From Candidatus Riflebacteria bacterium GWC2_50_8 (GTDB lineage: Bacteria; Muiribacteriota; Ozemobacteria; Ozemobacterales; Ozemobacteraceae), in contig MFYY01000073.1 of the NCBI GenBank assembly GCA_001787855.1, positions 909 to 37,655 of the forward strand: 36,747 nucleotides of DNA, in the 5' to 3' direction. This document shows positions 18,786 to 31,799 of the stretch, in pieces. How positions within the stretch are numbered: the first letter of the stretch is position 1; the number at the start of each line of letters is the position of its first letter. The notes below the pieces were generated by a model that was not told the origin of the DNA, searched no databases, and saw only the letters and a list, made by a program, of their open reading frames with translations. The translations under genes and the position numbers were made by a program.

Positions 18786-18837
18786 ATTTGACTCCTGGAA
18801 AAAAATCGGTTGCCTAAATGCTATCCAAATAGTATCG

Positions 18838-18843
18838 TATAAT
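18838..18843 (+). promoter_or_regulatory. TATAAT -10 box upstream of ferritin
   Basis: A perfect TATAAT lies 29 bases before the ferritin ATG, in an AT-rich gap after the HD gene. The best -35 (TTGCCT at 18810-18815) is 22 bases away, which is too far, so an activator may be needed or the box may be fortuitous. Confidence 0.4.
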
Positions 18844-18872
18844 GTTAGAAAAAATAACTGGAGGAAATTATT

Positions 18873-19397
18873 ATGTTCGCAAAAAAAATGGAAACAGCAC
18901 TGGTTCACCAGATCTACGAAGAAATGTATTCATTCTATCTGTATCTTGCCATGGCAGAATATGGCACTTCTGAAGGCATGCCCGGTCTGCGTCACTGGAT
19001 GCAAAATCAGGCCATGGAAGAACTCAGTCACGCGATCAAGTTTATGAATTACATTGCCGAAAAAGGTGGCAAAGCTGAGTTAAAAGCCCTGCAGGCACCG
19101 CCGAAGAGCTGGAAATCAGCAAAAAATGTCTTTGAAGAAGTTCTTAAGCACGAGCAGCATATCACCAGCTGCATCAACAATCTTGTCGATGTTGCCATTT
19201 CGGTTAAGGATCACGCTACTGTTAACTTTCTCAACTGGTTCGTCGCCGAGCAGGTCGAAGAAGAAGCCGCTGCCCAGGCTGTCATAGATATGGTCAAGCT
19301 GACCGGCAGTGCTCCAGGTGGCATGTTTATGGTTGACCGCGAACTGGCCGCAAGACCGGCGGCTCTTAATCCGCTCAACCCAACTCCGGCTGCCTGA
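18873..19397 (+). CDS. ftnA: Bacterial non-haem ferritin
   Basis: Ferritin stores iron as a 24-mer shell and oxidises Fe(II) at a di-iron centre. The 174 residues start at ATG 18873, after GGAGG (seven bases upstream). The ferroxidase residues fall at the same positions as in E. coli FtnA: E17, E50, H53, E94, Q127 and E130 (in EEMYSFY, MEELSHA, KHEQHI and AEQVEEE). No haem-binding methionine typical of bacterioferritin was noted. The last 20 residues are Ala/Pro-rich (ARPAALNPLNPTPAA) and may protrude into or outside the shell. A bidirectional terminator follows. Regulation by iron is likely, but no convincing Fur box was found. Confidence 0.95.
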   Translation: MFAKKMETALVHQIYEEMYSFYLYLAMAEYGTSEGMPGLRHWMQNQAMEELSHAIKFMNYIAEKGGKAELKALQAPPKSWKSAKNVFEEVLKHEQHITSCINNLVDVAISVKDHATVNFLNWFVAEQVEEEAAAQAVIDMVKLTGSAPGGMFMVDRELAARPAALNPLNPTPAA

Positions 19398-19416
19398 TAG
19401 CTGTTAGACAACGTCT

Positions 19417-19455
19417 GACATAAAAAAATCGCCATCTGGCGGTTTTTTTTATGTC
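19417..19455. terminator. Bidirectional terminator between ferritin and the site-2 protease gene
   Basis: The stem CGCCA/TGGCG is flanked by seven A residues on one side and eight T residues on the other, with GACAT and ATGTC pairing further out. It works in both directions and separates two converging genes; its outer edge touches the stop codon of the minus-strand gene. Confidence 0.85.
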
Positions 19456-20287
19456 AATACTGCATGCCACCTGTCTTAAAGCGGAGCAGGTAAGTGCCAA
19501 TCTCGCGCAGAGGGTCACCGAACAGGTCATTCAGGGCATTGAATGAAAAATTAATGGCTGGCGAAAGTATTACTCCGAGCCCGCCAACCGCAAACAGAAT
19601 AAGCAGGAGCATTGGAGCCAGCTCTTCGAATTGCCTGTATTTAAGCCTGTATTTGCCCGGCAAAAAATAAGAGGTGATTCGCGATCCGTCGAGAGGCGGT
19701 ATTGGCAGCAGGTTAAACAGTGCCAGGCTCAGGTTGATTATTATTATGGTTTCGCAGAACTTGTAAAGGAGCATAATTGCGTTTGGTGAAAGTGCAAGAT
19801 AAGACAATGATGCGGCAAGAGCCTTTAACAAAGCTACTCCAAGGATTGCCATTATCAGGTTGGAAAGAGGGCCTGCCATAGCAACAGAAAGCATGGCGCG
19901 GCGTGGAACGCGAAAGTTTGCCGGGTCGACAATAACGGGTTTGGCCCAGCCAAAGCCGGCAAAAAACAGCAGCAGCGTGCCGACCGGTTCAAGATGGCGC
20001 AGTGGGTTCAAGCTCAAACGCCCCATTCGTCGAGGTGTCGGGTCGCCAAGAAAATCAGCCATGATGGCGTGAGCGTATTCGTGAACAGTCAGAGATACCA
20101 GAATTACCGGCACCAGAAAAATGTAGTAGAACGCCGACCCGATCAAAGAACTTGAAGATTGCAGAGTCAGGCTGATAACAAAAAGAAAGAGTATCGTGCC
20201 GCCGATGATCAACAGCCGATTAAAAGATTCAGGCGGCATGCCGCCCGGCGGTGAGAATTTATAGATTTTTGTATAATTGTAAGGCAA
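19454..20287 (-). CDS. Site-2 protease (M50 family), membrane zinc protease
   Basis: Intramembrane metalloproteases of this type cut membrane-spanning substrates such as anti-sigma factors. The 277-residue form starts at TTG 20287, which has GAGGAG seven bases upstream inside the preceding gene; ATG 20239 is another candidate. HEYAH (H69, E70, H73) is the zinc site in the first helix pair, and NLLPIPPLDGSR with D200 is the third ligand. RRMGRLSLNPLRHLEPVG and AGPLSNLIMA are typical of the YdfH/Rv-type short subfamily without PDZ domains. About six membrane helices were seen. It overlaps the poly(A) polymerase gene by 29 bases and is the last gene of that operon. No anti-sigma factor is encoded in the window, so its substrate is unknown. 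Confidence 0.9.
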   Translation of the reverse strand: MPYNYTKIYKFSPPGGMPPESFNRLLIIGGTILFLFVISLTLQSSSSLIGSAFYYIFLVPVILVSLTVHEYAHAIMADFLGDPTPRRMGRLSLNPLRHLEPVGTLLLFFAGFGWAKPVIVDPANFRVPRRAMLSVAMAGPLSNLIMAILGVALLKALAASLSYLALSPNAIMLLYKFCETIIIINLSLALFNLLPIPPLDGSRITSYFLPGKYRLKYRQFEELAPMLLLILFAVGGLGVILSPAINFSFNALNDLFGDPLREIGTYLLRFKTGGMQY

Positions 20288-22880
20288 GTGCCAACTCCTC
20301 TTCGTGCGTAAAGTGCGAGCCTGTAAGCTTTTGCTCGATTATGTGCTTGAATATGTGGCGCATGTGCGGACCCGGCCTAACGCCAGAATCAATAAGATCC
20401 TGGCCGGAAATGCCGCAGCGGATGGCGCGCAGATTCATAATAAAGTGCAGAATTTTTCTGGCATTGCGCTTGTCGAGAGAGAATGCCATCAGTGACAGCA
20501 AAGTCTCAAGCGATAATTCATGCAGCAGGTTGAAAAGACCGATGGCGTCAGAATCATCTGTTTTGTTTACCACTGCAGGAACAGATTTTATCGCTGCCAG
20601 TGCCTGCACAATCAGACGTCTTCGGCTATGGTTGGTGCCCAGGTTGTCGAGTATCTCTTCGGCATTGTTGTTTCTGATTACTGATAAGATGCCTGTCCAG
20701 AAAATAGCTTCATCATCGATTTCTTCGCCGAGCGGCTTGAAACGCCTGATCAGGCTTTTGATCAACTTGAAACGCCCGGGAAGAATATCAGCATCAATCA
20801 TTTCGGGACTGAGATATTTCATCAGACCTGCCGAAAAAAGGTCGGCCACGATCTGCTGCGGGCGGTCCTCGTTAAGACAGCGCGAGATTTCAGCGCCGAT
20901 TCGTTTCAGCGAAAGTTTTTCCGGTGCTTCGCGGCTGATGGCAAGTTCGAATGCTCTCTGCGTATCCTGTTCAAGTGCGAAATTGAAGCGTCCGGCAAAT
21001 CTGATGGCCCGAAACAGTCGGGTTGGGTCCTCTAAAAAGCTGAATGAGTGAAGAATTCTGATGCGCCTGTTGACCAGATCGTTGTAGCCGCCAAAAAAAT
21101 CCTTCAGCTCAAGATAGTGTTCGGGGTTTAATGCGAGCGCCAGCGCGTTAATCGTAAAGTCCCGGCGATAAAGATCGTTTGACAGGCCACTGAACTCTAT
21201 CTGCGGCAAAGCTCCCGGATCTGAATAGTGTTCAATTCTCGCCGAACTGAAGTCTATTTTGAGATCTTCGAGATAAATTCTGGCAGTATGAAAGCGATCG
21301 AAAACCTTATATTCACAGGAAAATTCGCGGCTCAATTCAACAACGAAAGGCATTGCGTCGCCGATTATTACAATGTCTATGTCGAAGTTCTGACGCTCAA
21401 GCAGCAGGTCTCTGACAAATCCGCCAACCGCAAAGGCATTTACCCCTTTCTGCTCGGCAAAACGGCCTATGCGGTGCAGAAGATGATAAATGCGCAGAGA
21501 AAAAACCAGTTTAAGCAGCTTTTCAAGTTCGCCAGGAGCGGGCAGGGTGGCTTGTTCTGCCAGCGGAAGAAAATCGTGCGGAAGCGGCAAATAATCTGGC
21601 AGCGCGCGTAAAAGCTCGTGAGTGGTGATTATCCCGACTACTTTGCTATCCTGAAGAACAGGCAATCTGGTCAGATTATAGCGCACCATAAGGTTTTTAA
21701 GTACCCGCACCGGTGTGGCCGGGCTGACAATCGGGACGCTGGTTGGCACATAGGGGCCAATTTCTGAGTCGAGAAGATTCATCTGCAGGGCCCGGTCGAG
21801 ATCACGCCTTGTAACTATGCCAGCAAACTCGCTATTCTGCATAACTATCAACGACATGATGTTGAATTTGAGCATCGTGTCGAATGCGCTGCGTACACTG
21901 GCGTTCCAGTCTATACATTGTGGCGAGGCTGACATGATATCGCCGGCGGTCAGGTCTGGGTGGAGGTTCTTTTCTAGATGCTGCAGAACCCGGCTGCGAT
22001 TCTGCTCGTGTCCGATACCTGAAAAGTGAAAGTAAACCCAGTTGCGTAACCGAGTTGGACGAAAATCGGCGAAGATATCGCGAAAGTCGATTTGTGAAAC
22101 GCTGCTTCTGCACCATACTCTGGTAAAATTACCAAAAGTAAGCATGAGCAATAAAATTGGCGGCGAGATATCTGACCAGATAGTGTCTACTACAGGTTCT
22201 ATGTCTTGTACATGGTTGCCAGCCCTCACTGCAATAAGGGTCACCGGCCAGTAGCCTGGTTGAATGTCTTCGATATTTTTGAGCATATTGCGATATAGAC
22301 TGGTCTGGCCATCATGCATGCCGAGTACTACTGTGTTGGCAATTTTGCCGGGAGACATGGCCTGGCGGCCAAGAAATGCAAGTGCCTTGTGATCTTCCGA
22401 CTTGACTCGTCCCGACAGGCCGGCCCAGGTCTTTTCGGTGACTGCCAGCCGAAATATCTGCATGTCGTCGCTGGAAAAGTGTAACTGGTTGTCACGAAGC
22501 CGGTTAACCAGCCATGCAGTCAAGCTCATTGAATCACAAATTTCATTCTCAACTGCAAATGGTAGCGTGGCCGGCCGGTCAGCCATGACGACAATCCTTG
22601 GCGAGACCTTGCCGACAGCTTCGACAAACTCCTGATTCTGACGCAGGTGCGTTATGCCAACCAGGTAGACTGTTTTCAGCGCAGAAAAGTCAATATCGTC
22701 AAACTTGACGGTCTTAAACCAGTCCAGTTTCCGTGCTGTTTCCCAGGCATTTTGTCTGAATCTTACCGGATGCAGAATACTGGCGTCTCGCTCGCGAAGA
22801 AGCAGGCACCGTGCTGCTCCAAGATGGTCGAGATCAGCATTGTGCGGAAAAACAATCAGTTTATTCGGGCATTGCTTCAT
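20259..22880 (-). CDS. DHH-CBS-CBS tRNA nucleotidyltransferase/poly(A) polymerase
   Basis: The protein has 873 residues with four parts. Residues 1 to about 300 form a DHH-type phosphoesterase-like region: FPHNADLDHLGA keeps the first aspartates, but the DHH signature itself reads MADRP. Two CBS domains follow at about 315-365 (IVTRRDLDRAL) and 375-435 (IITTHELLRAL). The nucleotidyltransferase head has VGGFVRDLLL (about 485), the catalytic DIDIVI (about 499) and the RRDFTINALAL motif (about 577), then EDPTRLFRAIRFAGRF. This is the layout of A-adding enzymes in lineages where CCA addition is split between two proteins; CCA activity is also possible. The start codon is ATG 22880, 13 bases after the HD-GYP stop. 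It shares a transcript with signalling genes, which is unusual for a tRNA maturation enzyme. Confidence 0.9.
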   Translation of the reverse strand: MKQCPNKLIVFPHNADLDHLGAARCLLLRERDASILHPVRFRQNAWETARKLDWFKTVKFDDIDFSALKTVYLVGITHLRQNQEFVEAVGKVSPRIVVMADRPATLPFAVENEICDSMSLTAWLVNRLRDNQLHFSSDDMQIFRLAVTEKTWAGLSGRVKSEDHKALAFLGRQAMSPGKIANTVVLGMHDGQTSLYRNMLKNIEDIQPGYWPVTLIAVRAGNHVQDIEPVVDTIWSDISPPILLLMLTFGNFTRVWCRSSVSQIDFRDIFADFRPTRLRNWVYFHFSGIGHEQNRSRVLQHLEKNLHPDLTAGDIMSASPQCIDWNASVRSAFDTMLKFNIMSLIVMQNSEFAGIVTRRDLDRALQMNLLDSEIGPYVPTSVPIVSPATPVRVLKNLMVRYNLTRLPVLQDSKVVGIITTHELLRALPDYLPLPHDFLPLAEQATLPAPGELEKLLKLVFSLRIYHLLHRIGRFAEQKGVNAFAVGGFVRDLLLERQNFDIDIVIIGDAMPFVVELSREFSCEYKVFDRFHTARIYLEDLKIDFSSARIEHYSDPGALPQIEFSGLSNDLYRRDFTINALALALNPEHYLELKDFFGGYNDLVNRRIRILHSFSFLEDPTRLFRAIRFAGRFNFALEQDTQRAFELAISREAPEKLSLKRIGAEISRCLNEDRPQQIVADLFSAGLMKYLSPEMIDADILPGRFKLIKSLIRRFKPLGEEIDDEAIFWTGILSVIRNNNAEEILDNLGTNHSRRRLIVQALAAIKSVPAVVNKTDDSDAIGLFNLLHELSLETLLSLMAFSLDKRNARKILHFIMNLRAIRCGISGQDLIDSGVRPGPHMRHIFKHIIEQKLTGSHFTHEEELALALQLYKNL

Positions 22881-22893
22881 ATTGGCTCGGCGC

Positions 22894-25089
22894 CTATTTA
22901 TCGATGCCTTCGCGCTTGAGTATTTCGAAAAAGACTTTTACTATCTCAGGGTCGAGCTGGCTGCCAGCCGCTTTTTTCATTTCCTGTCTGACATATTCGA
23001 ATGGAAAAGCCTTGCGATATGGGCGGTCGGCAATCATTGCGTCGTATGTGTCGGCAACCGCGAGAATTCTGGCACCAAGCGGGATCTGCTCGCCCTTAAG
23101 ACCCAGCGGGTAGCCTGCTCCGTCGTAGCGCTCGTGATGATATAAAGTCAGCGGTGCAATTTCCTTAAGGATTTCGACACGTTCCATGATGCTGGCGCCA
23201 TATTCAGGGTGGCGATGCAGTTCTTCAACTTCTTCGAGGGTCAGTCGTTCCTGTTTCGTTAAAATGACATCTTTAATGCCTATTTTGCCTATATCATGCA
23301 GTAGCCCGGCATAACGAACGGTTTCGAGTTCGTCTTCGTTCAGGCCGAGCTCAATGCCAATCTTGACGGCGTATTCCATGACTTTTGTACTGTGTCCGTG
23401 AGTGTATGAGTCCTTGGCTTCGATTGCTGCCGCAAGAGCCATGACCATCGAAAGATACTGGCGTTTCATTTCAGCATAAAGCTGGGCATTTTCGATTGCA
23501 ATACTGGCCTGCGAAGCAAAAGTTGACAGCAGATCGATTTCGTCCTGCGAAAAATCGCGCGGTTTGCTGGTGTAGACAGTAATGACCCCGATTGGTCGAC
23601 CGCGCTGCATTATCGGCACGGCAAGCAGTCCAGCAAGCTTTTCGCGTTTGATCAGACTTGTATATTTTGTGCGTGGATCTTTTCGGGCATCGACGACAGA
23701 AATGGGCAGGCGCTGCGAAAAACAGCTTCCGATAATGCCTTCGCCGGTTTTAATAGCAGTCGATGATAAAAACGATTTTGACAGGCCGCGTGATGCCCTG
23801 ACTTCGAGCAGTTCTCCTGTTGCATCAAGCAGGCGCAGTTCGCAACGCAACGCGTTCATCATTTCCATTGAGAAGTTGACAATTGAGTCAAGAACCTCGT
23901 CGAGCACCAGAGTCGAGGTGATCGACTGTGAGATTTCGAACAATACAGAAATTTCATCGATACGTCGCTCAAGATACAACCTGATTTTTACGTTTTCGAT
24001 AGCGGTCGACAACAGGTTCGACAGCGTCGTAAAAGTGCGCAGATGTTCTCGGTTAAAAGCTTTCTGTCTGGTAGCAGAAAGGTTGATCAGCCCGATGTTT
24101 TTGCCCTGAACAGTCAGGGGCACTGTCATGAATGACTGTATTTTTCGCCTGAATACTTTGTCCATGCTCATGGCATTCTGCCCGGGCAGAAATAACTGCT
24201 GGCAGCGCGTAATCCTCACTGACTTTCCTCTGATTTTCAGACTGATGTCGTCGATGTGCCCGGTCAGGCTGTCGAGACTGGCTGGTGCGAGCGGCAGTCG
24301 CGAAACAAAATAGCGCGTTTCTTCATCGTCTTTGAACAGGCAGACAATACCGAGGTCGTGGCCGATCAGCTGTGCCAGGTATTCAAACGACAGCCCGATC
24401 AGCCCTTCAAGGGTCTGCACCGAAGAAAAGCGCTTGGCCAGAACGTTAAGTTTTTCCATCTCGCGAATTCTGTTCTCGCGTTCCTGCAGCAGGCCGCTGT
24501 GTTCGATCTTCATGGCAGCAAGATTCGCGAAAACAGTGGCCTCTTCGAGGTCGTTAACGTCAAAAGCTTTCGTTTTGGAAATATTCCCGACCACAAGAAG
24601 GCCGACGCACTGGGTGTTGGTGGTAAGGGGAATGATCATTGCCGATTTGAACGGTGCGTCCTTGAACAGGGGGTCGTGCATCTCGCCGGTGTATAAGAGC
24701 CTCTGGCGGCAGGAAAAGGCGTTGCGCAGAAGCAGGGATTCTCCTGCCAGCACTTCTTCTTCGTCATTCTGGTCGGTTGAGCAGGGCGCAAATCCAAATT
24801 CTTCTTCTGAATTCATTATGGTGCGCCGGTCGAGGCACCTGATCAGATTTGGCCTGGGGCGTTTTGGGCCGCTGAAAGCCTTGAAGCATAGCTCAAAGGT
24901 TTCACGGTCGAGCAGCATAAAGTAGGCTTCGTCAGATCTTATCGAATCCCTTACCGACCTGGCCATGTTTTTGAGCAGCTCATTCAGGTCAATGCCAGAC
25001 GAAAGCGCCATCGACAGGTCTGAAAGTCGAGAAAGACGCGCAAAGGTAAGTTCGGTTGAGTTTACTGGTCTGGCTGTTTTATTTGGCAT
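22894..25089 (-). CDS. Triple-GAF HD-GYP protein, putative cyclic-di-GMP phosphodiesterase
   Basis: The protein has 731 residues. Three GAF-type sensor regions lie at about 25-200, 215-370 and 385-545, and the last of these is the clearest (GEGIIGSCFSQ, GLLAVPIMQRGRPIGVITVY). The HD-GYP domain follows at about 550-725, with HGHSTKVMEYA, LLHDIGKIGI (about 597), HPEYGASIM, and HHERYDGAGYP (about 650), then ARILAVADTYDAM. All metal-binding residues expected in an active phosphodiesterase are present. There is no membrane helix, so sensing is cytosolic. The ATG at 25089 lies inside the end of the diguanylate cyclase gene (11-base overlap), so the two are translated together. The ligand of the GAF domains is unknown. 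Confidence 0.93.
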   Translation of the reverse strand: MPNKTARPVNSTELTFARLSRLSDLSMALSSGIDLNELLKNMARSVRDSIRSDEAYFMLLDRETFELCFKAFSGPKRPRPNLIRCLDRRTIMNSEEEFGFAPCSTDQNDEEEVLAGESLLLRNAFSCRQRLLYTGEMHDPLFKDAPFKSAMIIPLTTNTQCVGLLVVGNISKTKAFDVNDLEEATVFANLAAMKIEHSGLLQERENRIREMEKLNVLAKRFSSVQTLEGLIGLSFEYLAQLIGHDLGIVCLFKDDEETRYFVSRLPLAPASLDSLTGHIDDISLKIRGKSVRITRCQQLFLPGQNAMSMDKVFRRKIQSFMTVPLTVQGKNIGLINLSATRQKAFNREHLRTFTTLSNLLSTAIENVKIRLYLERRIDEISVLFEISQSITSTLVLDEVLDSIVNFSMEMMNALRCELRLLDATGELLEVRASRGLSKSFLSSTAIKTGEGIIGSCFSQRLPISVVDARKDPRTKYTSLIKREKLAGLLAVPIMQRGRPIGVITVYTSKPRDFSQDEIDLLSTFASQASIAIENAQLYAEMKRQYLSMVMALAAAIEAKDSYTHGHSTKVMEYAVKIGIELGLNEDELETVRYAGLLHDIGKIGIKDVILTKQERLTLEEVEELHRHPEYGASIMERVEILKEIAPLTLYHHERYDGAGYPLGLKGEQIPLGARILAVADTYDAMIADRPYRKAFPFEYVRQEMKKAAGSQLDPEIVKVFFEILKREGIDK

Positions 25090-27199
25090 TTTTCAACTTA
25101 CTTTCTTTATACATGATTACCCGGTTGCGGCCAGTATCCTTAGCTTTGTAAAGAGCAATGTCAGATGCCTCTATCAGATCAGACGGTTTTTCACAATTAG
25201 TAACGGTGGTGCAGGCGACGCCAATAGAAAGAGTAACGGACAGTTCCCTGTTGTCGTCGATTATGTGGGAAGCTTCTACAGCCGCGCGAATACGTTCAGC
25301 AAATCTGCTGGCACCTTCCAGTGAAGTTTCAGGTAGAACCACTGCAAACTCTTCGCCACCGTAACGTGCAACCGTATCGATCTGTTCGCGGACAGAACTC
25401 TTAAATACGGCTGCAACATGGCGTAAAACCTTGTCACCAACAAGATGTCCGTATGTATCATTGAATTTCTTGAAAAAGTCGATATCGATAAACATCAACG
25501 ATAACGGCTTGGCGTAACGTTTTGCGCGGGTGAATTCATGGTTGAGAGTTTCCTGAAAGTAGCGATGATTGAACAGTTCGGTAAGCTGATCAGTAAATGC
25601 CAGCTTTTCGGTGCGTTTGTGAATCAGCGCATTTTTGATACTGGTTATGAAGATGCCGGTAAATTGCGAGGTGCTGTCGAGATCGTCATTGCTGAATGGC
25701 TTGTCTGAGCTGCGAGTTAGGTGAATCAATCCACGCACCATATCACCAATTACCACCGGCAGGTGCAGTGTGTGTTTGTAATCAGTTGCTGGTCTGCCAT
25801 AATGTTTCTGCGGTTTGAAAAATACCGGCTTACAGTAATTTTCTCTGGTGAGCGGCGGATCGGCCGGGAAATCGCTGAACAGAGTGAATATATGCTCGCT
25901 CAGTTTCTTCTGGTAACGTATCGAAACAGGCTCATCTGGTTGCACGATCAGTCGGTAGCTGTTGTCGATGTCGTCAAAGAGCAGAATGGCAATGGTTGAG
26001 AAGCCAATGACATTGTTGAAGTTACTGAACGCCTTCTGCAGAATAATGTATGGGTCAAGGGTGGAGGTCAAATCCTTGCTGATCTCCAGAAAGAACACGT
26101 TGCGCTGGTTGCTTATATAGAGCAGATCCTGCTCTTCACTGATTTGCCTGATCATGTTTTCACGCTCAATAGCCATGCTCAGATTTTGCGAAACAAGATA
26201 GAGAAACCGGTAGTGTTTGCTGGCCTGACGTGTGTCGTCATCGATATACCTTCGGCTTACCAGCAACACGTGCGAGGGTTGCCCTTCAACCAGCAGCGGA
26301 ATGCAAAAGAGTTCACGGCTGCTGCCGTCGTTTTCTTCGAATGACAGCGTTGGTGGTCGCTGTTCTTCGTGTTTCGAAGCATAAATTTCTGATGCCTGGG
26401 AAAGCTGTATCTGCATGCGGGAAGAAACTGATCTGAACATTTGCTGCAACAGAGATGGCTTGAGATTGTGCGCAGCCAGAATAGTGAAGTTGATATCCTG
26501 TTCAACAGCGCCTGGCGTGCCGGGGGTTTTGGCAATATGCAGTATCGCGAGTCTTTCGAGTCCGAGCTGCCCAGACAGCTTTTTGAGAAACTCTGCCAGT
26601 CGCCCGGTAAAGTCGTTGGCTTCGGTAAGAATGCTTGCCATCTCATAAAGTCCGGCAATTTCGCGGCGGTTTTCTTCGAGAACTTCAAGCAGGCTTTCTT
26701 TCTCGATGAGGCTTGCTATCATTGTGTCGACTGCTCTCAGTCGATTCAGATCATTGCTGGTGAAGCCAGGCTGAGAGGCGGGGCGGTTGAGATTCATTAC
26801 GCCAATCAGCTTCTGATTTATTTTCAATGGAATTGATAAAAATGATCCAGAATCACCTTTTCTTCTGAGCTTTGTTTTAACGTCGCTTTGCTTAGTGCTT
26901 TCTACAACCATGGGAAGTCCGCTTTCGAATACTTTCCCGGCGATTCCTTCTTTAACAGGAATTTCGGTAACCAGTCCGCCTTTGCTGTCTTTTAATGCTG
27001 GATGATGTGATGATACATATAGCTTCAGGCTGTCGGCATGCCTGTCGTAAACCATGATTGAGCCAGATGCGGCGTCCATGTATTCTACGGTTTCGCTGAT
27101 CAGCGATTCTACCAGTTTGTGCAGATCGGTGGTCTCGGCAGCTTTTTCTGCCAGTCTGGCATGAAAATCCAGAATAGTATCGAGTTTATGCCCGTTCAT
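25079..27199 (-). CDS. Multi-GAF GGDEF protein, putative diguanylate cyclase
   Basis: The protein has 706 residues. GAF-type regions lie at about 20-170 (VKEGIAGKVFESGLP, SFLSIPLKINQKLIGVMNLN), 185-345 and 365-530, and the C-terminal GGDEF domain spans about 540-700. The catalytic signature is RYGGEEF (about 613), with FIDIDFFKKFNDTYGHLVGD as the metal and substrate region, so cyclase activity is likely. The inhibitory I-site (RxxD, five residues before GG) reads EQID here; the arginine sits one residue too early. Product inhibition may therefore be lost. The ATG at 27199 overlaps the stop of the upstream phosphatase gene (ATGA), and the 3' end overlaps the HD-GYP gene. Synthesis and breakdown of cyclic di-GMP are thus translationally coupled. 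Confidence 0.93.
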   Translation of the reverse strand: MNGHKLDTILDFHARLAEKAAETTDLHKLVESLISETVEYMDAASGSIMVYDRHADSLKLYVSSHHPALKDSKGGLVTEIPVKEGIAGKVFESGLPMVVESTKQSDVKTKLRRKGDSGSFLSIPLKINQKLIGVMNLNRPASQPGFTSNDLNRLRAVDTMIASLIEKESLLEVLEENRREIAGLYEMASILTEANDFTGRLAEFLKKLSGQLGLERLAILHIAKTPGTPGAVEQDINFTILAAHNLKPSLLQQMFRSVSSRMQIQLSQASEIYASKHEEQRPPTLSFEENDGSSRELFCIPLLVEGQPSHVLLVSRRYIDDDTRQASKHYRFLYLVSQNLSMAIERENMIRQISEEQDLLYISNQRNVFFLEISKDLTSTLDPYIILQKAFSNFNNVIGFSTIAILLFDDIDNSYRLIVQPDEPVSIRYQKKLSEHIFTLFSDFPADPPLTRENYCKPVFFKPQKHYGRPATDYKHTLHLPVVIGDMVRGLIHLTRSSDKPFSNDDLDSTSQFTGIFITSIKNALIHKRTEKLAFTDQLTELFNHRYFQETLNHEFTRAKRYAKPLSLMFIDIDFFKKFNDTYGHLVGDKVLRHVAAVFKSSVREQIDTVARYGGEEFAVVLPETSLEGASRFAERIRAAVEASHIIDDNRELSVTLSIGVACTTVTNCEKPSDLIEASDIALYKAKDTGRNRVIMYKESKLKNAK

Positions 27200-29985
27200 G
27201 CAGCAGCTTGTCCTTTATATTTAAGAGTCAGGATCGTAAGGTCGTCATGAACTTCTGCAACTCCCCGCCAGTCAACTACTGCAGTAAACAGGGATTCAGC
27301 GAGTTCTTCAGCGTTTTTTTCGGCATTCTGATGCAGAAGCATCTTGATTTGTTCTGTTCCAAACATTTCAAGATCGGGATTTTTTTGTTCAGAAAGCCCG
27401 TCTGTATACATAATCAGTGCATCACCGGTAGACATTTTAAACGGATTTCTATCATAACCAAGTTTTGGCGGGAACCCCAGAGGTGGGCCGCTTTTGGTTT
27501 CCACGCACTGGACTTCTCCCGACAAGTGAACCATTAGTGGCCCGTGTCCAGCCGAAGACATCTCGCAATCCCCATTCTCGGGATTTATTGCAACCAGTTG
27601 CAGAGTGACAAAGTGATAAGCATCAAGTTCTGGCGAAACTTTTTTGTTAACTTTTTCAAGAATCATGACCGGGTCAGAGCATTCCTGGACTACCTGTCTG
27701 ATGATCATGCGTGTGATGGTCATCAGAATTGCTGCCGGCATGCCTTTGCCGGAAACGTCACCAAGAACTGCCAGCAGTCGACCATCTTCGAGATTGAGAA
27801 TGTCAAAAAAGTCACCGCCAATCTGGCTGGCTGGTATGCTTTTTCCGAACATCTCTATGGACGAAGGCAGTTCGGTAAAGGTCTTGGGCATCAGCGACAT
27901 CTGAATCTCACGAGCATCGGCAAGCTGGCGGTCGATGATGTCTTTAACGTGTTTTTCCTTCATGAGCCTGACGTTCTCAAGAGCGGTAACGACCAGATGC
28001 GCTATGGCTTCCAGCAGTTGCTGATCCTGAAGCGTAAAAGTCAGCCCGTTGGTTTTATTGTTGACGTTGATAACGCCAAGAACCTTTTTTACTATCACGC
28101 CCCGCTGTTTAATCTGCCTGACAAGAGGGACAGAAAGCAGAGAGCGGTTAAGATAATGCTCAGAAGGGCGCTTTTTGAAAATGCCCTCTGACTCAATGTT
28201 GTCGATGCGGTACGAGCGGCCCTGTTTGGCTACGTATCCTGAGATTTCTTCGCCAATGGCTATTTTGGTCTTTTCGATTATTTCAAGCGGCAAATCTAAT
28301 CCATAGGCTCGTTTTATCGTCAGAAACTTCTCGCTCGCGTCGACTTCAAGATAGGATATGCGGTTAACCTTGAGCAGGCGCCTGATAATTATTATCATTT
28401 CGTCAAGCAGTGCGTCGCTGTCTGACAGTTTTTCCATCAAACCTTCAAGAGCGTTGATGGTATCGAGCTTTTCAGAGTAGTTGCTGGCAACCTGCAGGGC
28501 GGCGCTCATGCCGTTGAGAAGAATTGGCATCAGCGCAGTGAGGTCTTCTTCGGCCAGTGGCTTATTCAGTTCTGATTCAAAAAGTATTACTCCGCCGAGC
28601 GACCGAAGTGGCAGAAATTCTGTATTGATAGACGTCGCCTGCGGAGTTGTTGCCAGAGGTAAGACGTAGCGAACCGGCAACGGGTAGTGCCCGTTACGGT
28701 TATCAAACGCCGAGCCTTCATTAATCGCGTCGATTACCGGGCCTTTGCTGTGAATAAGCTTGTTGACATCAAGATTTTTCGGCTTTTCGCCGCCTAAAAA
28801 ATTTGATAACTCCAGCTCAGATGTATCACGGGAAAACATCAGAATCGCACCTGAATATTGGCCAAAGAGGTAGTTGAGGCTCTCTACCAGCTTGAACAGA
28901 ATTGCGTCGATGTTGACTGACGAAATGATTGTATTGCAGGTCTGGTTTATCTGTTGCAGCATTCGGCCGTGTCTGGCCTCTTTGCGCATCTGGTAAAAAT
29001 GGCTGAAATAAAGGCCGAGCTGATTGGCCAGGGTTGGCATGAGCTTCGACCTGTGGCTGATGTGTCGCTTAAAATTGTCGTCTGACATCAGAAAACCGAG
29101 ATGCCCGTATGTCTGGCCGCCAGCCTGACACGCGAATACCAGTGGCGACAGGCTGTTGCAGCTGAACTCCTGTATAGCGCTGGAAACAGTAGATCTTGTA
29201 ATGATTGCATGCTTTTCAATCTTGTAGTGCTGCATGGCAATCTCTATCATCTCTGAAATTTCGCTGCTGGTTCCATCGCTTTCACAGGCTGCCATTACGG
29301 TTATCTGATTGTAGGTGTCAGGTCCGGCATGTTGTAAGACAAATACGGTGTGAAAATTGAATGCACATTGAAGCTTAAGCAGAAAGCTTGTCAGCATCGG
29401 ACTGTCTTCGTCAAACCATAGCTGGGCCTGCTTTTCTTCGTATCCTGGAGCTGGCGGTAAAGCATCAGCACGTCGGCTTGGATTGAGCAGTTTCTGGGTA
29501 TCACGCAAAAACAAGAGCAGGCGGTCTGAGCTTTCAACCTGGCTTCTGATCAGGTGAAGCGGAAACTGGAATTTGCTGCAGATTCTCGTTGCCAGATGAT
29601 CTGCGAAATAGTGCCATTCTCTAATGCTGATACTGGTTTCTGCGGAGAGTAGCAACAGCAGGTCTGCAAAATGTGAGCTGTCTACCATGAAAGGGCTGAT
29701 AATTGTTATACACTTCTCGCCAGCCAGTTCCTTGATCAGCAGGTCTTCTGGCTTGTCTGGCAGTGGGTCTGCATTCAACCGGTAGAGCTCGTCAATACTG
29801 TGGTCAGCAGACCTGTTTAATCTGAATTCTTTCCATGGCTGGCCAGAACTGCCGGTATACAGGCGCAAAGCCAGTCCGCGATATTCAGGGAAATCTTTCA
29901 GAAGATTGAAATCGCTGCCGGAAAGCTCACTGAAGCAGGGAAATTCTTCTGCTTCAGCCAGTGCATTCAATAATGCAGTTTTCAA
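27196..29985 (-). CDS. Multi-GAF SpoIIE/RsbU-type PP2C serine phosphatase
   Basis: The protein has 929 residues from TTG 29985, which has GGAG six bases upstream. The N-terminal two thirds hold GAF-like regions, at about 190-340, 345-505 and 515-675, of which the last is clearest (GEEISGYVAKQGRSYRID, LGVINVNNK). A coiled linker (RQLADAREIQMSLMPK) leads to a SpoIIE-type PP2C domain at about 690-929 with GGDFFD (about 724), VLGDVSGKGMPAA, SAGHGP, IMYTDGLSE (about 861) and VHDDLTIL. The metal-binding aspartates are all present. Members of this family dephosphorylate anti-anti-sigma (STAS) proteins, but no STAS or anti-sigma kinase gene lies in this window, so the target is elsewhere. It is the first gene of the five-gene signalling operon. 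Confidence 0.93.
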   Translation of the reverse strand: MKTALLNALAEAEEFPCFSELSGSDFNLLKDFPEYRGLALRLYTGSSGQPWKEFRLNRSADHSIDELYRLNADPLPDKPEDLLIKELAGEKCITIISPFMVDSSHFADLLLLLSAETSISIREWHYFADHLATRICSKFQFPLHLIRSQVESSDRLLLFLRDTQKLLNPSRRADALPPAPGYEEKQAQLWFDEDSPMLTSFLLKLQCAFNFHTVFVLQHAGPDTYNQITVMAACESDGTSSEISEMIEIAMQHYKIEKHAIITRSTVSSAIQEFSCNSLSPLVFACQAGGQTYGHLGFLMSDDNFKRHISHRSKLMPTLANQLGLYFSHFYQMRKEARHGRMLQQINQTCNTIISSVNIDAILFKLVESLNYLFGQYSGAILMFSRDTSELELSNFLGGEKPKNLDVNKLIHSKGPVIDAINEGSAFDNRNGHYPLPVRYVLPLATTPQATSINTEFLPLRSLGGVILFESELNKPLAEEDLTALMPILLNGMSAALQVASNYSEKLDTINALEGLMEKLSDSDALLDEMIIIIRRLLKVNRISYLEVDASEKFLTIKRAYGLDLPLEIIEKTKIAIGEEISGYVAKQGRSYRIDNIESEGIFKKRPSEHYLNRSLLSVPLVRQIKQRGVIVKKVLGVINVNNKTNGLTFTLQDQQLLEAIAHLVVTALENVRLMKEKHVKDIIDRQLADAREIQMSLMPKTFTELPSSIEMFGKSIPASQIGGDFFDILNLEDGRLLAVLGDVSGKGMPAAILMTITRMIIRQVVQECSDPVMILEKVNKKVSPELDAYHFVTLQLVAINPENGDCEMSSAGHGPLMVHLSGEVQCVETKSGPPLGFPPKLGYDRNPFKMSTGDALIMYTDGLSEQKNPDLEMFGTEQIKMLLHQNAEKNAEELAESLFTAVVDWRGVAEVHDDLTILTLKYKGQAAA

Positions 29986-29993
29986 ATGTTACT

Positions 29994-30025
29994 CCACTGT
30001 ACAAGTAGCTATTTTTTTACAGTGG
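29994..30025. repeat. Perfect 8-bp dyad at the signalling-operon promoter
   Basis: CCACTGTA (29994-30001) and TACAGTGG (30018-30025) are perfect inverted copies with a 16-base centre. On the minus strand the dyad begins one base after the -10 box and ends in the Shine-Dalgarno GGAG of the SpoIIE gene. The first arm would lie at or before the transcription start, so a DNA operator is more likely than an RNA hairpin. Confidence 0.55.
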
Positions 30026-30026
30026 A

Positions 30027-30055
30027 ATTATAGTCTTTTCTCAATTCTATTTCAA
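30027..30055 (-). promoter_or_regulatory. Strong sigma70-like promoter of the signalling operon
   Basis: On the minus strand, TTGAAA (30050-30055, five of six), a 17-base spacer and a perfect TATAAT (30027-30032) precede the TTG start by about 40 bases. It is the best-scoring promoter I saw in the window and should drive the genes down to 19454. Confidence 0.78.
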
Positions 30056-30255
30056 GGAGCGCTGATTTTGCAGCGAATTGAATTTTTGGGATGCCAGAAC
30101 AGTTGCTTTGCTGATGAAAATGCAATTGCTTTGAATAGTGTGCCTGTACAGCTGGTATATTTGGCAATATTGGGGATTGCGCGTGTTAATTCCCTGAACA
30201 GCGCAATGAATACAACCGCAGATGCAGTCAGTGTACATTTTATTAAGTAAAACTG
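30056..30255. other. Intergenic stretch without recognisable gene
   Basis: These 200 bases between the divergent signalling-operon and rpsT promoters contain only short open frames without Shine-Dalgarno sequences or recognisable protein motifs. I see no tRNA, riboswitch or clear repeat. They may hold part of either regulatory region. Confidence 0.5.
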
Positions 30256-30284
30256 TTGAAATTGTTGTGCAATTATGATAGCAT
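30256..30284 (+). promoter_or_regulatory. Candidate promoter for rpsT
   Basis: TTGAAA (30256-30261), a 17-base spacer and TAGCAT (30279-30284) with a TG two bases before it, the extended -10 pattern, lie about 40 bases before the rpsT ATG. Confidence 0.5.
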
Positions 30285-30323
30285 TAAATTTCCAATATTG
30301 ATTATTTATGAAAGGTGAACTTT

Positions 30324-30593
30324 ATGGCTAATACTAAGTCTGCTGCTAAAAATGCAAGAAAGGCTGTCCGCCGACACACTCTGCGGGTATCCGTCAAATC
30401 TGAACTCAGAACTCTGCGCAAAAGAGTTCTCACCGCTGCCGAAGCCAAACAGCCGGCCGCAGAAGTCAACGACCTTACCAAGGTCGCAATCAAGAAGTTT
30501 GCCAAGGCAGCTTCTAACAAATACATTCATCCCAAGACCGCTGCCCGCAAAATCAGCCGTCTGATGAAAGCAGTCAATAGACTGCAGGCCTGA
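30324..30593 (+). CDS. rpsT: 30S ribosomal protein S20
   Basis: S20 binds 16S rRNA early in assembly of the small subunit. It has 89 residues from ATG 30324, with AAGGTG upstream; three extra codons upstream (MNF) are not part of the gene. The start MANTKSAAKNARKAVRRH is diagnostic, and the basic helices end in HPKTAARKISRLMKAVNRL. Length is normal (85-90). It has its own promoter and is followed by a hairpin terminator. It converges on holA, an adjacency also seen in Firmicutes such as Bacillus subtilis, so it may be an ancestral pair. Confidence 0.96.
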   Translation: MANTKSAAKNARKAVRRHTLRVSVKSELRTLRKRVLTAAEAKQPAAEVNDLTKVAIKKFAKAASNKYIHPKTAARKISRLMKAVNRLQA

Positions 30594-30629
30594 TTAAACT
30601 AATTTACTGATCCGTTTATTAGCCATCAT

Positions 30630-30663
30630 ACCGGGAACGTGCTAAGGCGTGTTTCCGGTTTTT
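30630..30663 (+). terminator. Rho-independent terminator of rpsT
   Basis: ACCGGGAAC (30630-30638) pairs with GTTTCCGGT (30651-30659), with one G-T wobble, and five T residues end the structure. It lies six bases before the holA stop codon on the other strand. Confidence 0.75.
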
Positions 30664-30668
30664 GGCGT

Positions 30669-31799
30669 TCAGCCGGTTTGGCTGGTCAGAAAACTGGCGG
30701 TAAATCGCTGTAATGAAGCGCCCGGGTCGGCTATTCCTGATTTGAAAGCCAGGTCAGTCTCGATAATCTCCTGCGTGGCTGCAGTCAGTTCTGAATAAGT
30801 AAAGTTCAGTGCCAGATGAAGATTGCGCAGCTTTCCCGGCTGGCGCAGACCAGCTGCTTTGGCTAAGGTCTCTGGCATCGAGTCGGCGATCTGCTGAATT
30901 TCAGAGAGCAGATTCTTTTTTTCCTGGTTGGACTTGAAATCAGACTTGCTGGCCAGTTGGCTGTAACGCCGTAATAGCACAAAAACTGGCTCAAACAGAT
31001 CGGGGCGATCACGCAGTAAGGCATGCAGCAGTTTGAAGTCCCGGAGCTGCCGGCAGAGCATGAACCATAATTTGGGGGCAGCCTCGCCACTGTTTATAAG
31101 TGTTTCCAGGCAGCGCAATGCCTTTATTGGACTACGTTGACCAAAAGCTTCGAGAAAATCAAAGACGTTATTCTGGCGCAGATAGGCAACGCCAGCTTTT
31201 ACTTCGGCCAGGCCGATCTTTTTTCCGCGGGAGCTCAGGGCGAGCTTGCTCAGTTCCTGGTGAAGCATGGCCAGATCGCTGCCGACAAGCTCAATAAGTT
31301 GATCGGCAGCTTCGTTACTTATCTCTGCCCCTTGTTCGGCAGTCTGGCGCTTTATCCAGGCACCAAGTTGATTGGCAAAAGGTGCCCAGAAGTCAATCCG
31401 GTCAGACTGCTGCTTGAATTTGCCAGCGATCTCGCCGGCAACTTTTGCGTCTGATACGATAAAAACCAGGTATGTATCAGCTGGAATTCCGCCGTTGGCA
31501 AGTCTTTCAAGAAAATCTTTGCGTTGCTTTGCTGTTGCAGAATCAATTTCCTGGATAAGAAACAATCTTGGGCTTTCGTTAAAAGTAAAACTGAAAATCT
31601 GCTGGATTACGCCGGGCAGCTCTTTGGCATTGCTGCCAGCCCGAACCACATTGTCCTGGCGATCCGTTTCGGGGACCAGGCTCTGAATCATGTCTGAAAA
31701 AGCTTTTTCCTTGAGAAAATCCTCTGGCCCGGCAAAGACTAATACCGGGTTGCTGATTTTGCCAGTTTTTAGCTGCTTCTCAAAGGTTGCCAGATCCAA
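30669..31799 (-). CDS. holA: DNA polymerase III delta subunit
   Basis: The delta subunit opens the sliding clamp within the replicative clamp loader. The 376 residues start at TTG 31799; AGGT lies about ten bases upstream and no better start is near. The N-terminus NPVLVFAGPEDFLKEKAF replaces a working Walker A, as is normal in HolA (it is an AAA+ fold without ATPase activity). LFLIQEIDSA and TYLVFIVSDAK mark the following strands, and LAMLHQELSKLAL, NVFDFLEAFGQRSPIKALRCL and WFMLCRQLRDFKLL are typical of the C-terminal collar domain. Length is within the family range (about 340-380). It follows the aminopeptidase gene and a strong hairpin, and converges on rpsT. Confidence 0.9.
   Translation of the reverse strand: MDLATFEKQLKTGKISNPVLVFAGPEDFLKEKAFSDMIQSLVPETDRQDNVVRAGSNAKELPGVIQQIFSFTFNESPRLFLIQEIDSATAKQRKDFLERLANGGIPADTYLVFIVSDAKVAGEIAGKFKQQSDRIDFWAPFANQLGAWIKRQTAEQGAEISNEAADQLIELVGSDLAMLHQELSKLALSSRGKKIGLAEVKAGVAYLRQNNVFDFLEAFGQRSPIKALRCLETLINSGEAAPKLWFMLCRQLRDFKLLHALLRDRPDLFEPVFVLLRRYSQLASKSDFKSNQEKKNLLSEIQQIADSMPETLAKAAGLRQPGKLRNLHLALNFTYSELTAATQEIIETDLAFKSGIADPGASLQRFTASFLTSQTG

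Follow-up and report, generated by a model that had tools for sequence, protein, structure and literature searches.

In the SiaABCD system of Pseudomonas aeruginosa, a PP2C/SpoIIE-type phosphatase and a diguanylate cyclase are encoded in one operon, and the phosphatase dephosphorylates a partner protein that in turn controls the cyclase (PMC7647112, PMC8457831). In the HsbR-HsbA-HsbD system of the same species, a STAS-type anti-anti-sigma partner switch is joined to a diguanylate cyclase (PMC5085249, PMC6482189). RpfG-type proteins combine a receiver with an HD-GYP domain. For its part, the HsbR phosphatase is a response regulator.

The locus described in this study lies in a stretch of DNA of 36,747 nucleotides (the window) from a member of Candidatus Riflebacteria, the nearest named relatives of which include Candidatus Rifleibacterium amylolyticum. 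Like SiaABCD, it possesses phosphatase and cyclase genes in one operon, here a putative one in which the two are adjacent, and we propose that its cyclase may likewise be under the control of a substrate of the phosphatase. It differs from SiaABCD in that no genes for the SiaB kinase and SiaC are found between its promoter and terminator, that its phosphatase is soluble and carries a GAF domain, and that an HD-GYP phosphodiesterase belongs to the set. A genome-wide search for SiaC gave no match, although the control of this search was likewise silent. In comparison with the HsbR system, the locus has no STAS gene in its operon, whereas the HsbR system has no phosphodiesterase. As for the RpfG type, the HD-GYP motifs of the locus are intact, and other families have an adjacent receiver gene, while in G026 a receiver is fused to an HD-GYP protein; in contrast, the HD-GYP protein of family f1, that of the window, has three GAF domains instead of a receiver. 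By titles or abstracts, we found no description of such an operon in the literature.

Organization of the locus

The features of the locus are as follows.

30027..30055, minus strand: sigma-70-like promoter of the operon, TTGAAA-17-TATAAT, matching the consensus at 11/12 positions
27196..29985, minus strand: SpoIIE-type PP2C phosphatase, 929 aa, TTG start (PF07228, E=6e-47)
25079..27199, minus strand: diguanylate cyclase, GAF and GGDEF, 706 aa (PF00990, E=2e-51)
22894..25089, minus strand: HD-GYP phosphodiesterase, 731 aa (PF13487, E=2e-39, and three GAF stretches)
20259..22880, minus strand: DHH-like/CBS/CBS/tRNA nucleotidyltransferase, 873 aa (PF01743, CBS)
19454..20287, minus strand: M50 site-2-type membrane protease, 277 aa, TTG start within the preceding gene (PF02163, E=2.5e-13)
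19425..19454, both strands: hairpin with T runs (sequence), a likely terminator in common with the convergent ferritin-like gene

The preliminary description had reported five genes in this order, and all of its open reading frames (minus strand, 29985-19454) and coordinates were confirmed, as were the domain identities by Pfam (SpoIIE, GGDEF, HD_5/HD, PolyA_pol with CBS, and Peptidase_M50). The locus has a divergent rpsT gene (30324-30593) on one side and, on the other, a ferritin-like gene (18873-19397) that is convergent with it.

From the first to the last junction, the spacing in the window was -4, -11, +13 and -29 bases, exactly the overlaps and the gap reported before. The junctions vary little within the genus, being about -4, -8 to -14, +12 to +13, and -29, and the overlap of -29 between the nucleotidyltransferase and M50 genes was found in 5/5 genomes measured. 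The M50 gene begins with a TTG that lies 29 bases within the nucleotidyltransferase gene and is served by a separate ribosome site. Since the same junctions recur in relatives, including this internal TTG and its ribosome site, they are not due to chance. The overlaps suggest translational coupling. They do not establish the fixed ratio of translation expected earlier, because TTG starts that each have a ribosome site permit unequal rates.

No other site in the region 18800-31000 matched a promoter as well as the hexamers TTGAAA and TATAAT, which lie 40-70 bases 5' of the phosphatase start codon. This promoter recurs, with slightly changed hexamers, in nine genomes of three genera, where a GGAG ribosome site and a TTG start accompany it. 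The window hairpin 3' of the M50 gene was absent from the listing of the terminator/promoter scan because its stem is short; hairpins after the M50 gene are also present in four congeners. Because the phosphatase promoter is conserved over three genera and a hairpin with T runs follows the M50 gene in close relatives, it is likely that the five genes form one operon.

The three signalling enzymes

The phosphatase retains the metal-binding Asp motifs of PPM phosphatases (GGDFFD, GDVSGKG, YTDGLSE and HDDLT) in all family members covered. The cyclase retains an invariant GGEEF and the N and D residues for guanine specificity wherever the family is covered, as a diguanylate cyclase should. The HD-GYP protein keeps the HD metal residues and the HD, HH and GYP motifs wherever covered, and shows the highest conservation among the five proteins (62-96% identity within the family). 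An RxxD inhibitory site is common among diguanylate cyclases, but not universal. The cyclase of every family member, including that of the window (25079-27199), reads RxxxD at this position, and this replacement may remove product inhibition.

No membrane-like stretch was detected by a scan of the phosphatase, cyclase and HD-GYP proteins, as the preliminary description had stated. Its statement that each of them has several GAF domains holds for the HD-GYP protein, which has three, and is weaker for the other two. That is, the cyclase has one clear GAF domain, one divergent domain (sub-threshold in Pfam; 82-87% in profile comparison) and one doubtful domain. The phosphatase has one clear GAF domain at residues 522-670, and no GAF domain was detected by Pfam in residues 1-522. 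The structure models of the phosphatase and cyclase were poor (mean pLDDT 48), and the GAF counts are not settled by them. In G021 (L041), the phosphatase match consists of two pieces in different frames, reflecting a frameshift or a sequencing error.

The nucleotidyltransferase and the M50 protease

The fourth gene had been taken for a poly(A)/CCA polymerase. Its identity as a nucleotidyltransferase stands, and its DHH-like/CBS/CBS architecture is close to that of A-adding and CCA-adding tRNA enzymes (NF041569; PDB 3h37), with which it shares the CBS pair before the nucleotidyltransferase half and the GG, DxD and RRD motifs, intact wherever covered. It matched the A-adding profile NF041569 over residues 58-869 with E=1e-100 and 338 bits, a score below the curated cutoff of 1440 bits, and it matched PDB 3h37 with E=2e-61. 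It further differs from these enzymes in that the third DHH motif of its front half is not kept; no DHH domain was detected there by Pfam. We think that it is probably an A-adding (or CCA-adding) enzyme. In the genera g5, g10 and g11, the protein is a short form of 420-433 aa without the DHH-like/CBS half and keeps its place in the operon (L038-L041, L045, L056, L057). Long open frames in G008 and G020 were considered as a fusion of the HD-GYP and nucleotidyltransferase genes, and this was rejected since the reading frames differ.

The M50 protein has membrane stretches together with the HExxH and LDG motifs of site-2 proteases, which are invariant wherever the family is covered. In G020, an open frame of 723 aa with no Pfam match (L034:5467-7638) adjoins the M50 gene.

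Conservation within the family and beyond

Conservation of the gene order had been set beforehand as a test, and it held inside the family. All five genes are contiguous in 15/24 genomes of f1 (G000-G003, G005, G009, G010, G012, G016, G018-G021, G037 and G038), six others are truncated at contig ends but fit the same arrangement (G004, G006, G007, G008, G013 and G015), and the remaining three are rearranged. In G014 (L045:1118-7092), the HD-GYP gene is lacking and the cyclase (385 aa) lacks its front GAF half, so that the phosphatase and a bare cyclase remain. In G011, the phosphatase gene is located elsewhere. In G017, the trio of phosphatase, cyclase and HD-GYP genes and the nucleotidyltransferase/M50 pair lie on two different contigs, neither of them at a contig end. 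Single exceptions could be assembly faults, because all of the f1 genomes are drafts.

With looser matching, the phosphatase, cyclase and HD-GYP genes were found in the same order and strand in families f4 (G024, G028) and f2 (G022). A stand-alone CheY-like receiver gene lies between cyclase and HD-GYP there (L061:4968-5408, L071:3042-3434, L073:3191-3640); it had been considered as a STAS or RsbW gene, and this assignment was rejected. In f6 (G026, L068), a receiver-GAF-HD-GYP protein precedes a PP2C gene, and another PP2C-cyclase pair is located elsewhere. No nucleotidyltransferase or M50 gene follows the modules of f2, f4 and f6 in the stretches read, and in G024 the nucleotidyltransferase/M50 pair is on another contig than the trio.

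The best PP2C match of G024 was the clustered one. A back-search with the G028 cyclase gave the locus cyclase as the sole match at E<=1e-45 in G000, G001, G010 and G020, in support of a shared ancestry for the cyclase. The back-search with the G024 HD-GYP protein gave no confirmation of orthology across families, preferring an f1 paralogue of 1020 aa over the locus HD-GYP. Because of this preference, the HD-GYP gene may have been exchanged or replaced. No PP2C or cyclase neighbour of the paralogue was recognised in comparison with the locus genes.

Discussion

Since the trio stands without the pair in f2 and f4, and G017 is split in the middle of contigs, we regard the trio as an old conserved signalling module that was apparently combined with a separate pair of housekeeping genes in one family. 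We therefore favour, as the rather probable reading of these sequences, a composite operon in which a PP2C/cyclase/HD-GYP signalling core and a co-transcribed tRNA nucleotidyltransferase/M50 pair share no pathway. The three soluble enzymes would read cytoplasmic signals via their GAF domains, and the opposing cyclase and HD-GYP phosphodiesterase would set the local level of cyclic di-GMP. The f1 module has no counterpart of the receiver gene that separates cyclase and phosphodiesterase in other families. The pair would be co-transcribed with the module for shared expression.

The targets of the phosphatase are most likely STAS-domain proteins encoded elsewhere. A search for STAS and anti-sigma partners, as suggested previously, revealed such proteins in the genome: 14 STAS matches, 10 HATPase_c_2 matches over the cutoff (RsbW-like) and two adjacent STAS/HATPase_c_2 pairs. 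One PilZ match was found as well. None of the 14 STAS matches is inside the operon, and in the family loci read the surroundings of the trio yielded no recognisable gene for a STAS protein or a kinase. The cases of SiaA-SiaC-SiaD (PMC7647112, PMC8457831) and HsbA-HsbD (PMC5085249) suggest by analogy that STAS proteins are the probable substrates of the phosphatase; we infer this step, because none of the STAS proteins is linked to the locus. The partner switching that results, whether towards a kinase/anti-sigma factor or towards the cyclase, would be controlled jointly with cyclic di-GMP. Sigma control is a possible output of the module.

The preliminary description had proposed that all five genes form a single stress switch, in which tRNA 3' ends and regulated membrane proteolysis are connected with sigma control and cyclic di-GMP. 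The order and overlaps are conserved over 15 family genomes, M50 proteins can act in sigma signalling, and the persistence of the five-gene block in G010, G037 and G038, although their flanks differ, leaves room for a real joint function. However, the trio without the pair, the pair apart from the trio in G024 and the split in G017 leave the link of second messenger to RNA ends and protease unsupported, and the operon persists in three family genera whose tRNA enzyme lacks the DHH-CBS half. We consider such a switch unlikely. The same changed flanks, and the recurrence of the trio order in other families, speak against the view that the genes are chance neighbours, that is, independent sensor enzymes held by slow rearrangement next to rpsT. 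This view gains something from the partial conservation of the flanking ferritin, MgsA, rpsT and holA genes, and yet it seems very unlikely to us.

The strict gene order, the strong conservation of the HD-GYP protein and the lack of a recognised STAS or kinase gene beside the trio in the genomes read would also suit a closed complex, in which the phosphatase dephosphorylates the neighbouring GAF proteins and the three act mutually, with no STAS partner. SpoIIE-type phosphatases of known substrate, however, act on STAS-like proteins. SiaA, for example, acts on SiaC (PMC7647112). Many STAS proteins are present in the genome as well, and we hold the closed complex to be improbable. Still less credence is given to its extension, in which the three proteins form one complex that in f1 also controls tRNA 3'-end maturation via the co-translated nucleotidyltransferase and the membrane protease.

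On the composite reading, the locus offers a case, conserved over families of an uncultured phylum, in which a single unit encodes protein dephosphorylation together with both the synthesis and the degradation of cyclic di-GMP. It extends the idea of the Pseudomonas SiaABCD and HsbRAD systems. It would also illustrate that operon membership alone can mislead, for the tRNA enzyme and the protease seem to form a pair of their own that was added in one family.

Finally, relatives carry a second tRNA nucleotidyltransferase, with an HD domain, beside a glycine-dehydrogenase-like gene (L093:416-1903). It is a candidate CC-adding partner, and would fit a split CC-adding/A-adding pair.
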